Source: Deltaproteobacteria bacterium (GTDB lineage Bacteria; Desulfobacterota_B; Binatia; UBA9968). From it: DNA of 5,095 nucleotides. The notes beneath the pieces were generated by a model, which saw only the letters and a program-made list of their open reading frames with translations, did not search any database and was not told the DNA's origin. Position 1 is the stretch's first letter. Each line of letters opens with the position of its first letter. A program made the position numbers and the translations under genes. The stretch spans positions 1-5,095 of the forward strand of contig JAPUHZ010000225.1 of NCBI GenBank assembly GCA_027297485.1, given 5' to 3'. Below are positions 1,203 to 5,095 of this stretch, in pieces.

Positions 1203-1349
1203 GCGTTATCTTTTATTCTCTGTGCAAATTCTCCTCTTAAGCTGAGGCGAAAACCTGCGACAAACCCCCTTTGAGCTTAGCTCGGCCAGACACGAAGACT
1301 GCCGGAGCTAATCCGATATTTTTGTAGTACCTTTTAGACCGGGGGGGGC
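1203..1349. other. Gap between convergent genes
   Basis: This 147-bp stretch separates the + strand secreted-protein gene from the - strand 464-aa gene. It contains a bulged hairpin (1277-1311) followed by a short T-run, and an eight-G run (1341-1348) touching the stop of the - strand gene. No tRNA, integrase or clear attachment repeat is visible. If the right side is an integrated element, one boundary could lie here, but the sequence does not prove it. Confidence 0.5.
1277..1323 (+). terminator. Candidate intrinsic terminator (bulged hairpin plus T-run)
   Basis: TTAGCTCGGC (1277-1286) pairs with GCCGGAGCTAA (1301-1311) as ten base pairs with one bulged G at 1304 and a 14-base loop. Seven bases later comes TTTTT (1319-1323). 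The position downstream of the secreted-protein gene fits a terminator. The long loop, the bulge and the gap before the T-run make it a weak example. Confidence 0.35.
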
Positions 1350-2744
1350 TCAAGGTTCGCGTTGCGTTTGGGTTACTAGCCTTTTGATATCCTCAATTGA
1401 TTCACCTTTTTGTAGGTGGCGGTTTATATACTTCCTGGCGGTTTCCCTCTCTTTTGTTTTAGTCAAGTGATCAATGAGAAGACGGCGGTTACGTTGAGGC
1501 TTGAGTTTCTGCCTCACCGCTTCCAGAATACCATCGTCTAGGCATCTGAGAGGTTTGCCTCCGCGTTGAGTGTGCTCGCATTTAATTTGCCCTTTGTTAA
1601 TCCAATCATGCAGGCGGTCGGGGCTCACTTCATATCCCTCGGTGTTCAACTGCTTTACCGCTTGTTTGACGCTGTAAATGTCCCTTTTATCGTCAGCCTT
1701 TTTAATTTCCAACTTCTCAGGGGGTTTACCTCTGGTTCCGGCATATACGCGACCGCGAGTTTTCCGCTCCTTGATCTCTTGCACTTTCTCAAGGTCATCG
1801 GAATGGTCAATCTCTGCCGATTGCGCATTTTCTCTCTTGAAAGACCATTTCACCCGACGCACATACAATCTCATGGCCCGCCAATCCTCGGGTAAAGTGA
1901 AATTGTTCAAAAGCCCCTCCCGTGGTTTATCTCCATGTAACACGAGAATGGCATCTCCTTGGTCTTTGATCTTGAAACATTTCTGAACCAACTCACACAA
2001 AGTAGCATTCACAGATTTGTCAATCATTCCCTCCTGCCTAAGATAAAGCAGTAAGTGCAGGCGAACTTCATCAATAGGCTGCCGGGGATCAATATAGATA
2101 GTCCTCCAGCTTCTCGGTGCTCCCTTCTCGTACAATGCTTCGGCTTGTATCTTGATTTTCAGGGACCCCACTGTAAGGACTTTTTCCTTCTTGCCCTTTG
2201 TGTAAGAACCGCGAATTTCGTTTAAGGGCTGCTGAGGATCAAACAAATACTTTATCGGTTTTCTAGTTCCAGAGAATCTTTGCCTGTCTCTCATGCGGGA
2301 AAATATTTGCCATGGGAATCTTCTATTTCCAGCAAGACCAGAAAATCCAACGTGAATCGTGAGTTTTTTGATTGCTGCATCGAGAGCTTTCATCTTCTCC
2401 GGTGAAGACTCTAACAGCGCCCCTCTCAGCTCGTCCTCTGTGGAATGCGGATGCTGGGCAAAATCTAATAGCAAGTAAGGCTTGCGGGGCATCCAAAAAA
2501 CACGAACCGTGCACGAGAGCCCGGAGCATCTCTCAAACCCAAGGTCTCGCCTACCAAATCCTGAAGTTTTAACCTCAGTTTTCTCTTGCTCCGACATGTT
2601 CTTGAGGAAGAAGAAACGATCCTTACGCCGCCGCCGGGTAAGTTGATGGACCCGTGCCGCAAGCTTGCCCACCAGATCAGGATTTGAGTCACAAGTGAAA
2701 AATGCTTGGTTGGAGGTATCTCTAAGGGATTGATTTTCCAGCAT
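1350..2744 (-). CDS. Unknown 464-aa protein with C-terminal MerR-like helix-turn-helix
   Basis: I do not recognise the family. The protein is basic and soluble, with an Arg/Lys-rich patch (LTRRRRKDR, about 35-43). Two segments resemble each other: IKYLFDPQQPLNEIR (164-178) and RTIYIDPRQPIDEVR (214-228), suggesting a duplicated unit. A charged, probably helical linker (about 302-352) leads to a helix-turn-helix-like region (about 355-413) reading DIYSVKQAVKQL, then VSPDRLHDWINKGQI, then RGGKPLRCLDD. That order of helix, recognition helix ending in 'W...G.I' and a wing is like MerR or excisionase-type domains. The tail (about 420-457) is helical and charged. The ATG at 2744 is preceded by a weak GGGA eight bases upstream; Met50 is a possible later start. 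It is transcribed divergently from the replication operon across a 65-bp gap, so a regulatory or element-maintenance role is a reasonable inference. No nuclease, recombinase or ATPase motif is visible. Confidence 0.75.
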   Translation of the reverse strand: MLENQSLRDTSNQAFFTCDSNPDLVGKLAARVHQLTRRRRKDRFFFLKNMSEQEKTEVKTSGFGRRDLGFERCSGLSCTVRVFWMPRKPYLLLDFAQHPHSTEDELRGALLESSPEKMKALDAAIKKLTIHVGFSGLAGNRRFPWQIFSRMRDRQRFSGTRKPIKYLFDPQQPLNEIRGSYTKGKKEKVLTVGSLKIKIQAEALYEKGAPRSWRTIYIDPRQPIDEVRLHLLLYLRQEGMIDKSVNATLCELVQKCFKIKDQGDAILVLHGDKPREGLLNNFTLPEDWRAMRLYVRRVKWSFKRENAQSAEIDHSDDLEKVQEIKERKTRGRVYAGTRGKPPEKLEIKKADDKRDIYSVKQAVKQLNTEGYEVSPDRLHDWINKGQIKCEHTQRGGKPLRCLDDGILEAVRQKLKPQRNRRLLIDHLTKTKERETARKYINRHLQKGESIEDIKRLVTQTQREP

Positions 2745-2809
2745 AATCTATGTCCCATTTTGCCACTATATACTAGGTAGGGCAAGAAAATTTTTCTTCG
2801 AGGTGTGAC
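2745..2809. promoter_or_regulatory. Divergent promoter/operator region
   Basis: This 65-bp gap must hold the promoters of both the - strand 464-aa gene and the + strand operon, unless these start inside a gene. TATACT (2769-2774) is a good -10-like box for the + strand, and its complement TATATA could serve the - strand. No good -35 box sits at the right distance for either, so the promoters would be weak or regulator-dependent. The inverted repeat at 2760-2785 straddles these boxes. The neighbouring small helix-turn-helix protein (2810-3004) is the obvious candidate to bind here. Confidence 0.45.
2760..2785. repeat. Inverted repeat over the divergent -10 boxes (candidate operator)
   Basis: TTGCC-A-CTA (2760-2768) pairs with TAGGGCAA (2778-2785): eight base pairs with one extra A in the left arm and nine bases (TATACTAGG) between the arms. 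The placement over TATACT suits a repressor site. The unequal arms weaken the case for a symmetric dimer operator. Confidence 0.4.
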
Positions 2810-3004
2810 ATGGACGTTAATCTTGGACTCAAATTGGCACTGATTAAACAGTTTGGTTCGCAAGTCTCTGCTTCTCGCAAGTTGGGGATTCGTGAAAGCA
2901 AATTATCCTACATCGTGAGAGGTCATGCTCAGCCGTCAGACCGAGAACGGCAGGCCCTTGAGAGCGCCTTGGGGCGTGTGCTTGTTAGGAGGCTACTCGG
3001 ATGA
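2810..3004 (+). CDS. Small Cro/XRE-like DNA-binding protein
   Basis: The 64-aa product is almost entirely one helix-turn-helix domain. Residues about 6-15 (GLKLALIKQF) form helix 1, SQVSASRKLGI (17-27) helix 2, and RESKLSYIVRG (28-38) the putative recognition helix. A C-terminal helix (SDRERQALESALG) follows. This matches the layout of phage Cro/CI and YdaS-like proteins, in which such a domain binds an operator as a dimer. There is no oligomerisation or protease domain, so it is more Cro-like than CI-like. GAGGTG at 2800-2805 lies four bases before the ATG. It is the first gene of the operon: its TGA overlaps the ATG of the TOPRIM gene. The divergent inverted repeat 25-50 bp upstream makes autoregulation likely, by inference. 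Confidence 0.75.
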   Translation: MDVNLGLKLALIKQFGSQVSASRKLGIRESKLSYIVRGHAQPSDRERQALESALGRVLVRRLLG

Positions 3005-3684
3005 TGTCCAGAGAGGAGGAGGAGAGGGCCAAACGACACCACTATCTGAATATTTTACTTTCTGCAGTCTATCGAGGCAGTCTAGCCCCTGACCATCGTG
3101 AAGACTTAAAAAAAAGCGGACTAAACCCTGAGACGATCCACATGCAACGAATCCGTTCCGTTCCTCCATGGCTGATCCCGAGACTTCTTGGGTTCAATAT
3201 CCCGAATATTAACTCAGCCCTTCTATTTCCATTTCCTGATCCTTCGGATGGATTCATGGACCATGTACGAATGAAGATTTTTCCAATAATCACAAATCGT
3301 GACACTCAAACTATCAAATATCTCCAGCCAAAAAACACTGGTGTTCGTCTTTTTTTCCCGTATCAGGCAATGGAAGAGGTACTTCACGGACTCAACCCCC
3401 TCTGGTTAGTAGAAGGAGAGAAAAAAAGCCTCGCAGTAGCCCAGATCGGCCTCCCTGCCGTGGGGTTCTGTGGGATCGAGGGATGGCACAGGAAAGGATC
3501 TATAGAGTTGATTCCAGATTTTGACCATATCCCTCTCAAGGATCGAGTGGTGGAGTTGGTCCCCGATGGTGATGTTCAGACCAATCCATTTGTCCGACGC
3601 GGGACGGAACGGTTTTCCCTGGCCCTCCAAGCTCGCGGGGCTCGTCCCCGTCTCGTGGTACTTCCGGGGGAGGTAGCAGCGTGA
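3001..3684 (+). CDS. TOPRIM-domain (DUF3854-like) replication protein
   Basis: The 227-aa protein resembles DUF3854/TOPRIM proteins of plasmids, phages and integrative elements. The N-terminal part reads HREDLKKSGLNPETI (32-46), then SALLFPFPDP (72-81), IKYLQPKN (105-112) and RLFFP (116-120), a pattern typical of this family. The TOPRIM core follows: LWLVEGEKKSLA (134-145) carries the conserved glutamate (E138), and ELVPDGDVQTNP (185-196) carries the D-x-D pair (D189, D191). It ends in a Rossmann-like helix and strand (ALQARGARPRLVVLP). TOPRIM enzymes use these acids to bind metal in primases, topoisomerases and nucleases; which activity applies here is unknown. No zinc-finger or helicase domain is fused to it. 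The start ATG 3001 is supported by AGGAGG at 2987-2992, eight bases upstream; ATG 3004 is an alternative. It overlaps the genes on both sides by four bases (ATGA and GTGA), so translation is probably coupled with the downstream MCM-like helicase. Confidence 0.8.
   Translation: MMSREEEERAKRHHYLNILLSAVYRGSLAPDHREDLKKSGLNPETIHMQRIRSVPPWLIPRLLGFNIPNINSALLFPFPDPSDGFMDHVRMKIFPIITNRDTQTIKYLQPKNTGVRLFFPYQAMEEVLHGLNPLWLVEGEKKSLAVAQIGLPAVGFCGIEGWHRKGSIELIPDFDHIPLKDRVVELVPDGDVQTNPFVRRGTERFSLALQARGARPRLVVLPGEVAA
3669..3674 (+). promoter_or_regulatory. Shine-Dalgarno GGAGGT deciding the GTG start of the helicase gene
   Basis: GGAGGT sits six bases before GTG 3681 inside the end of the TOPRIM gene. It is a near-perfect ribosome binding site and favours GTG 3681 over the in-frame GTG at 3690. 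Confidence 0.7.
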
Positions 3685-5095
3685 ACAACGTGGGCGCAGA
3701 TGACTTCATCGAAGCGAAAGGCGCGACGGCAGAAGACTTAGACGGCCTTCCCAGGGGAGAAATTCTCCCCCCTCTGATCCATCTCGTCGATCTTGAACGC
3801 ACGGAGTACGTTGGCCGGATCGTTCGTACTGATATTGTAATTGCTGGAGTCGGGGAGACGTTTCACGTGCCTCGATCATGGGAAGCAAAATGCATAAAAG
3901 GCAATTGCCCGCGCTGTCCCACGACGGTAGACCTCAAGACACGGAAGGATCTACTTAACTTTTGCCGCATGAGTGACGATCAAACCAAAGGATTCATGCG
4001 AGCCATATCCGGTTGCAAGAATAAACCAACGATACGAGAGAGAGAGATGACAACTATCACGGAGATTCTCGCATTGCCAGTAGCCACTCCAAACGTGGAA
4101 GGATCGACCAGAGATTATCGCGAGAAAATCGTATACCTTGTCGGTAGCCTTTCCACAAGTAATATTCGATATCGTGCTATTGGAACTGTTATTGCGGAAC
4201 CGAAGCGGCAGCGGGCCGCGCTCCTAATCACTCGCCTTGACCGCCTCCAATCTGCTTCGGAAGAATTCACCCTGACGTCTGAACTCAGCGAGCAATTTCG
4301 CACCTTCCAAATGACTAGGCCAGCAGATTCTTCACCCCAGGCGCAGCTTGATGCTGCGGAGGAACATGTGAAGAGGGTCACACGGGATATCACGAAACAC
4401 ATTACTAAGATATATGGCTCTCATCGAGAAACTGTACTACTCGGCGAGCTCCTTACCCTACATAGCCCTGCCGAGATCCACTGGGCAGGAGAAATAATAA
4501 AGGGAGTTGTCGACGGCCTAGTAGTTGGCGACACAGGTCAAGGCAAAACTACTCAGGCACGACGGCTCATAGCTGCTACGGGGCTGGGATATCTGCCCTC
4601 GGGGTCTACTGGGAGCCGTACCGGGCTTCTCTACAACCTCGATTCCAAGGTCAACGATAAGCGGATTCTCCGATGGGGAGCATTCCCGTTAGCGCACGGC
4701 GAGATACTTTTTGTCGATGAGGCACAGAATATTTCTCGGAAGGAATGGACTGAGTTTACATCCGCAAGAAGCGAGGGGATTTTAAAGGTTGATCGGTCTA
4801 TCCGCGCAGAGCATCCGTCAAGAGTGCGGCTGGTTTGCTTCGCTAACCCTCTTGAACAGCGATCTATGGCCTCCTTTCAGTATGGGATCATGGCAGTCCA
4901 TCCTGAAAGCGGCTTTCTCGATTCCCAAGACCTGCGACGTTTCGACTTTGTTGCTCTTGTTTCAGAAGCGGACCAGGAAACCAATGATATTGTTTCAGGT
5001 ATAAACGGAAACGATACTTTCGAGCTAATACCGCCAAATCTGCTTCGGGAGTCAATTCTCTGGGCGTGGACACGCAGAATCGAGCACCTCCGATA
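3681..5095 (+). CDS. MCM-like AAA+ replicative helicase (partial, runs off right end)
   Basis: The frame is open from GTG 3681 to the window end: 471 codons plus two bases, no stop. The N-terminal part has a possible zinc cluster, C71-x4-C76-x2-C79 with C95 or C112 as fourth ligand. A beta-rich OB-like region follows (about 120-200, with YLVG...YRAIGTVIAEPKRQ). The ATPase domain starts near KIYG (243-246), equivalent to the 'IYG' of MCM proteins. Walker A is GDTGQGKT (283-290). SGSTGSRTGLL (307-317) matches the MCM 'GSS..GLT' loop. GAFPLAHGEILFVDEAQ (333-348) is the MCM 'GAL.LAD.G...IDE' Walker B, with DEAQ in place of DEFD. The sensor-1 motif is CFANP (386-390), and DLRRFDFVALV (417-427) supplies the arginine finger (R420), matching MCM 'LLSRFDL'. 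Sensor 2 and the C-terminus lie beyond the window. MCM proteins form hexameric rings that unwind DNA at replication forks. The gene overlaps the TOPRIM gene by four bases, so the two probably act together in element replication. The MCM-class assignment is firm; the family within it is not known to me. Confidence 0.85.
   Translation, partial: MNNVGADDFIEAKGATAEDLDGLPRGEILPPLIHLVDLERTEYVGRIVRTDIVIAGVGETFHVPRSWEAKCIKGNCPRCPTTVDLKTRKDLLNFCRMSDDQTKGFMRAISGCKNKPTIREREMTTITEILALPVATPNVEGSTRDYREKIVYLVGSLSTSNIRYRAIGTVIAEPKRQRAALLITRLDRLQSASEEFTLTSELSEQFRTFQMTRPADSSPQAQLDAAEEHVKRVTRDITKHITKIYGSHRETVLLGELLTLHSPAEIHWAGEIIKGVVDGLVVGDTGQGKTTQARRLIAATGLGYLPSGSTGSRTGLLYNLDSKVNDKRILRWGAFPLAHGEILFVDEAQNISRKEWTEFTSARSEGILKVDRSIRAEHPSRVRLVCFANPLEQRSMASFQYGIMAVHPESGFLDSQDLRRFDFVALVSEADQETNDIVSGINGNDTFELIPPNLLRESILWAWTRRIEHLR

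Follow-up and report, generated by a model that had tools for sequence, protein, structure and literature searches.

An MCM helicase gene coupled to a TOPRIM gene, with a primase module that seems divided between the two

The contig JAPUHZ010000225.1 of a deltaproteobacterial genome (assembly GCA_027297485.1; Binatia, UBA9968), a stretch of 5,095 nucleotides that we call the window, ends in two coupled genes that probably encode a replication core: an MCM (minichromosome maintenance) AAA+ helicase and a DnaG-type primase core, with one primase apparently divided over the two genes. Bacteria and their elements usually pair DnaG primases with DnaB-type or superfamily 3 helicases; in archaea and eukaryotes, MCM works with archaeo-eukaryotic primases (AEPs). 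A preliminary description of the window had reported an MCM-class helicase beside a separate TOPRIM protein; what appears to be new here is that, on sequence grounds, the primase module seems to be shared out between the TOPRIM and MCM genes. The features that carry the argument are the following.

3001-3684, + strand: DUF3854/TOPRIM gene, 227 amino acids (aa), from PF12965 and the predicted fold
3412-3420, + strand: TOPRIM motif EGE, residues 138-140, invariant in 35/35 aligned rows
3565-3573, + strand: TOPRIM motif DGD, residues 189-191, both Asp in 35/35 rows
3661-3666, + strand: 'LP', residues 221-222, past the last TOPRIM strand, P in 35/35 rows; the protein ends five residues on
3666-3673, + strand: GGGGGAGG, Shine-Dalgarno-like sequence for the MCM gene, within the TOPRIM gene
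3681-3684, + strand: GTGA overlap of the GTG start of MCM with the TGA stop of TOPRIM, read from the sequence
3681-5095, + strand: MCM-family helicase gene, 471 residues visible, C-terminus beyond the window end, from profile and predicted fold
3681-3755, + strand: putative N-terminal tail of MCM, residues 1-25, G-A-D-D-F...G, from its likeness to the post-LP segment of fused primases

Identity of the helicase

Profile and predicted fold agree in confirming that the open reading frame (ORF) at 3681-5093 (+ strand; GTG start, 471 codons, no stop before the window end) encodes an MCM-family helicase. MCM was the top Pfam profile (E 1.7e-7, 31.0 bits against a cut-off of 23.3), phrog_18685 matched at E 4.2e-58, and all 50 of the 50 Foldseek matches listed for the predicted model were MCM chains, spanning the N-terminal domain and the AAA+ core. 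The model shows the MCM N-terminal domain, the helix-2 insert and the pre-sensor-1 hairpin, in accord with the class assigned by the preliminary description, and every motif quoted there was located in the frame: IYG (residues 244-246), GDTGQGKT (283-290), GSTGSRTGLL (308-317), LAHGEILFVDEA (337-348), ANP (388-390) and RRFD (419-422). Walker A, Walker B (DE), the sensor 1 Asn and the arginine finger, here RRFD, stand in MCM order. Conservation in the following list refers to the alignments A5 and A7.

3777-4250, + strand: MCM N-terminal domain, about residues 33-190, mostly beta in the model, from alignment to MCM chains
4527-4550, + strand: Walker A GDTGQGKT, residues 283-290; K289 in 53/53 rows of A5 and 17/17 of A7
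4602-4676, + strand: helix-2 insert region, residues 308-332, a helix then a beta hairpin (318-321/329-332) in the predicted secondary structure, colinear with MCM
4707-4727, + strand: Walker B LFVDEAQ, residues 343-349; E347 in 53/53 rows of A5
4779-4817, + strand: pre-sensor-1 beta hairpin of the predicted model, residues 367-379, strands 367-371 and 375-379, colinear with MCM
4845-4847, + strand: sensor 1 Asn, N389, in 53/53 rows of A5
4935-4946, + strand: arginine-finger RRFD, residues 419-422 (SRFD in MCM); R420 in 53/53 rows of A5

A magnesium chelatase, MoxR or McrB identity, which the preliminary description had named as the outcome that would tell against MCM, was rejected because MCM outscores all of these profiles; Mg_chelatase reaches 20.2 bits, just below its cut-off of 20.3. 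It is likewise very improbable that this AAA+ ATPase, as a member of the MCM/Mg-chelatase/McrB superclass, serves in repair, recombination or defence instead of replication. Mg_chelatase, AAA_5 and AAA_22 do match the frame weakly, but all three fall below cut-off, the MCM N-terminal domain is present, and relatives are fused to primases and occur close to DNA polymerase genes in one Bacillus phage and one plasmid.

Among the close relatives that have a letter at the position, the N-terminal cysteines, candidate zinc ligands, are constant (C71 and C76 in 13/13, C95 in 14/14, C112 in 15/15); in the wider A5 set (n=53), Cys occupies positions 71 and 79 in 52 rows, position 76 in 36, position 95 in 5 and position 112 in 1. 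The C-terminal third, with the lid and winged helix, falls outside the window, and complete relatives have sub-cut-off helix-turn-helix (HTH) matches near the C-terminus. No AEP was matched in the MCM frame, which has merely about 30 residues ahead of the MCM domain, and DUF927, as in Cch of the staphylococcal cassette chromosome mec (SCCmec), gave no match at E up to 1.

A putative primase segment at the gene boundary

The separate TOPRIM protein of the preliminary description stands, with DUF3854 (PF12965) above cut-off (E 1.1e-8, 35.5 bits against 23), and can be taken further: its model (predicted local distance difference test score, pLDDT, 92.6; predicted template modeling score, pTM, 0.88) finds its best fold match in the DnaG catalytic core, in the N-lobe and TOPRIM parts. 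The 227-aa protein is predicted to be a DnaG-type primase core without the CHC2 zinc domain. The invariance of EGE and DxD in all 35 rows, which represent 35 of the 120 listed relatives (656 were found), would argue for retained catalysis. The DUF3854 profile scored 6 of 9 DUF3854 fusions above cut-off, misses fused DnaG-type primases and gave one weak match in 80 genomes of the phylum of genome G002; single-sequence scans of viral contigs with the MCM or TOPRIM protein gave no result.

The TOPRIM protein stops five residues beyond LP, and MCM opens with MNNVGADDFIEAKGATAEDL. In DnaG-MCM fusions, TOPRIM and 'LP' are followed by a segment with two near-invariant Asp residues (16/17 each, for the 17 of 31 rows that aligned), and HMMER pairs this segment with 'GYDPDEFI' of Aquifex aeolicus DnaG and 'GLDPDDYI' of Bacillus subtilis DnaG. 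The corresponding pattern, G.D[DT], occurs in the first 12 residues of 13/13 complete MCM N-termini, the window included, versus 4/2861 in the background. The 13 are related by descent and cannot count as independent observations; the background, mechanical ORFs of at least 100 aa from the retrieved loci, includes many that are not genes. At the other side of the boundary, G.D[DT] is missing from the last 25 residues of 118/120 listed TOPRIM proteins. In the two that keep it, P0058 and P0116, the TOPRIM protein runs on into the motif ('LPAGVKGIDDYL' in P0116), as expected if the segment is part of the primase module.

A combined profile, in which 11 DUF3854 fusions were joined to 27 of the 33 non-redundant DnaG-MCM fusions (the anchor pattern missed the other 6), put the window third among 1855 N-termini (14.1 bits, E 0.0053) and had 6 of the 13 MCM N-termini among its top 8; the DnaG-MCM profile alone ranked the window second of 1703. 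In the viral contig L109, the gene for a separate DUF3854 protein (9944-10693) shares 4 bases with the gene for an AAA_25 helicase (E 6.8e-17); the pair spans 9944-12030, and the helicase has the same G-x-D-D motif near its start (13.3 bits). Judged from these features, L109 is the same TOPRIM/helicase split with a different helicase. Residues 1-22 of the MCM model have a pLDDT under 50, which would fit a tail that needs a partner, without proving one.

Several observations weigh against a primase divided between the two proteins. With the combined profile, the other 7 MCM N-termini ranked 13th to 486th, the DUF3854 profile alone placed the window only 47th of 1778, and HMMER alignments of Escherichia coli DnaG end ahead of the post-LP segment. 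L006, a complete stand-alone MCM of 659 aa, lacks the tail, and its N-terminus ranks 1664th; no TOPRIM was found on its 6.1-kb contig with the DUF3854 profile, though this profile also misses fused DnaG-type primases. The pairing of TOPRIM with MCM beyond the window has as its sole basis that P0008 and P0122 both have a longest contig of 16,627 bases. TOPRIM relatives (656) also greatly exceed close MCM relatives (16) in searches that were both length-limited, such that fusions could not turn up in either; many such TOPRIM proteins would then probably partner other helicases.

The profile ranks bear on the possibility that TOPRIM and MCM are independent and that the N-terminal likeness arose by convergence, the tail being a short acidic peptide that serves an unrelated purpose. 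The motif is indeed short, the E-value of the combined profile is modest, and 7 of the 13 N-termini rank below 12th. We nevertheless regard convergence as quite unlikely, given the 13/13 versus 4/2861 distribution, the recurrence of the motif early in the AAA_25 helicase that follows a separate TOPRIM in L109, and TOPRIM proteins that end right before the motif, with two that keep it. The segment in P0058 and P0116 and the helicase match in L109 offset the weaker profile ranks.

The remaining objections concern catalysis. None of the six window proteins scanned matched Zn_ribbon_DnaG (CHC2) at E up to 1, whereas the CHC2 zinc domain was present in 6/6 fused DnaG-type relatives scanned with Pfam. 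Some zinc-less TOPRIM primases, such as animal Twinkle, have lost priming. In 3/13 MCM N-termini, Thr replaces the second tail Asp, which speaks against a strict need for that Asp. All of this would suit a division of labour in which MCM is the helicase, the TOPRIM protein is a non-priming DNA-binding or regulatory remnant, the host DnaG primes, and the GxDD tail is a leftover docking peptide. We consider such a remnant unlikely, though the least so of the alternatives: EGE and DxD are invariant in the rows aligned from this 656-protein family, and the fold agrees with the N-lobe and TOPRIM parts of the DnaG core.

Relatives, operon and genomic context

tblastn found phage and plasmid primase-MCM proteins that aligned over 92-94% of the MCM protein at 31-32% identity, in 10 phage records, duplicates included (7 Bacillus phages, 1 Weizmannia phage and 2 uncultured Caudoviricetes), and one plasmid. 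The four examined are all fusions, either of AEP with MCM (L001, L002) or of CHC2 zinc and TOPRIM domains with MCM (L003, L004). The alignment query gave at least 4 loci in genome contigs, together with the best 80 of 307 relatives in viral contigs. A script labelled 37 of 88 MCM ORFs (L001-L088) as fused to AEP and 48 as fused to a DnaG-type primase, these labels reflecting resemblance to a small set of anchor proteins, and left 3 without a label: the stand-alone L006, L013 at a contig edge, and L079 with AEP in another frame. L089 (on the contig of L079), L090 and L091 are later MCM loci outside this classification. In the AEP-labelled L045, L065 and L085, Pfam primase matches are weak and sub-cut-off, or there are none.

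Stand-alone relatives were recovered by a protein search with MCM residues 20-265, which admitted 0.55 to 1.75 times the query length and so excluded fusions of about 1000 aa. It yielded 16 relatives, 49-62% identical and without a fused primase; the 12 with a complete N-terminus start like the window MCM and have no primase domain, and nine that seem full length measure 650-677 aa. In an unrooted tree of 70 rows, the row closest to the window MCM is P0122 (70% over 433 columns), and the stand-alone MCMs, L006 among them, form one side of a branch with support 100/100, L006 being a long branch of the kind for which the tree program warns of long-branch joins. With labels as given, the primase type switches at least 3 times on this tree. 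Rooting with the lone outgroup L116, whose branch measures 7.6 changes per column, gave no order of the stand-alone, AEP-fused and DnaG-fused groups. A viral-contig scan with the close MCM clade, using two patterns, found no relative.

Four loci, L045, L065, L079 and L085 (AEP by script, L079 by hand), group among the DnaG-fused MCMs, some of the branches being weakly supported; one primase type may have replaced the other on more than one occasion. In the viral locus L079 (571-3581), the AEP and MCM parts lie in overlapping frames (571-1359 and 1341-3581), which could reflect a frameshift, a split gene or a sequencing error. L116 (contig C332 of genome G001, which is labelled Bacteroidota and also contains L006) is a frame of 1153 residues with an archaeal-type MCM broken between Walker A and Walker B by intein-like sequence; its contig is perhaps an archaeal contaminant.

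In the window, the TOPRIM and MCM genes follow a small gene that opens the operon.

2810-3004, + strand: possible HTH protein, 64 aa (HTH_3 E 0.0018, 18.7 bits, under the cut-off of 23)
2987-2992, + strand: AGGAGG, Shine-Dalgarno-like sequence ahead of the TOPRIM gene

The TGA of the HTH gene shares bases with the ATG of the TOPRIM gene in the ATGA at 3001-3004, and the three genes are joined in a chain through 4-base overlaps. The Shine-Dalgarno coupling of the MCM gene, already proposed from the sequence, is borne out by the GTGA overlap and by GGGGGAGG 15 to 8 bases upstream of it. A programmed frameshift from TOPRIM into MCM was rejected, with 0/4 tested slippery heptamers in the 36 open MCM-frame codons upstream of 3681. 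Reinitiation at the overlap, with its own Shine-Dalgarno-like sequence, is the simpler explanation and the one we prefer.

Divergent to the operon lies a gene for a 464-aa protein (1350-2744, - strand) with an HTH-like stretch near residues 346-396. It has a 51-residue match to phrog_12885 (E 1.4e-5), whose function is unassigned there; Pfam HTH matches fell below cut-off, and phage, plasmid and viral-contig searches returned no relatives. Two short genes at 170-730 and 780-1202 had no family match above cut-off; one of them has a hydrophobic N-terminal segment, the other a signal-peptide-like start. The gene at 170-730 had no match in plasmids, and both are possibly host genes adjoining the element. 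The search for iterons or an origin in the window gave just three direct-repeat families of two copies each, and inverted repeats of at least 12 bases within 400 bases were absent. Promoter and terminator scans of the window stayed at chance level, the tRNA scan found none, and Rfam gave no match at gathering score. The bacterial mobile-element context of the preliminary description found no backing in the window itself, where no protein matches an integrase, capsid, relaxase or terminase family (E up to 0.001); that context is inferred solely from relatives in phages and a plasmid.

Proposed mechanism and comparison with known systems

We propose that the two coupled genes encode one primase-helicase machine, in which the MCM helicase would presumably be hexameric and move 3' to 5'. 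The TOPRIM protein would provide the primase fold through the last TOPRIM strand and 'LP', and the next primase segment (G-x-D-D-F...G) would be the N-terminal tail of the helicase. This tail would dock back onto the TOPRIM protein, completing that part of the fold, and would tether the primase at the MCM N-terminal side, where fused relatives bear theirs. In E. coli DnaG, Asp residues of the post-LP segment are part of the metal-binding acidic cluster, so the primase active site might be shared between TOPRIM and MCM. As a tentative extension, to which we give less than even weight, the active site would be shared, with the helicase tail supplying the conserved Asp segment (DnaG 'GxDPDxx') and the primase silent until it is on the MCM ring, and the junction would be an exchange socket for different helicases (MCM here, AAA_25 in L109).

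The arrangement can be set against several known ones. MCM helicases with AEP primases are described from bacterial phages and plasmids (PMC5862659), and BcMCM is credited with helicase, primase and polymerase activity (PMC4538821). Fusions of the BcMCM type, from Bacillus phages and prophages (ev125 AYP68415; Bacillus velezensis p3 WP_218791794), have the MCM N-terminal domain and AAA+ core in common with the window (31-32% identity over 92-94%) and likewise link a primase to the helicase, but their AEP is fused in front, whereas the window has no AEP and a separate DnaG-type TOPRIM protein. The CHC2/TOPRIM-MCM phage fusions (BSTP5 QQO90093, ctIqW946 UOF80042; viral L036 and L044) combine a DnaG-type primase with an MCM-type helicase, as the window does, and have a GDxxDF segment after LP; they are, however, one polypeptide with CHC2, in contrast to two genes, no CHC2 and a DUF3854-family TOPRIM. 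Proteins that join DUF3854 to a helicase (AAA_25, D5_N/DUF5906 or DUF927 helicases; cyanobacterial CyRepA) have the same TOPRIM family adjoining or fused to the helicase, which comes from another family, unlike the true MCM of the window; the link of DUF3854 to a TOPRIM domain is described for cyanobacterial plasmid Rep proteins (PMC10079941). SCCmec mobile elements resemble the window in that their operons encode the MCM-like helicase Cch or, in separate genes, the helicase Cch2 and the primase proteins CCPol and MP. In CCPol-MP, however, the primase consists of an A-family polymerase plus a small partner, and the passages on these elements name no TOPRIM protein (PMC7581432). Among the papers that the literature searches listed, no title or opening of an abstract describes an MCM with a separate TOPRIM/DnaG-type primase, which is not proof of novelty.

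The window would unite a helicase of archaeal and eukaryotic type with a primase core of bacterial type in two coupled genes, and its stand-alone MCM is a third arrangement alongside the AEP-fused and DnaG-fused MCMs. The apparent split of the primase within its own fold would offer a simple and testable answer to how a primase stays restricted to its helicase, and a two-protein TOPRIM/MCM system would be a small set for reconstituting the coupling of MCM to a primase.
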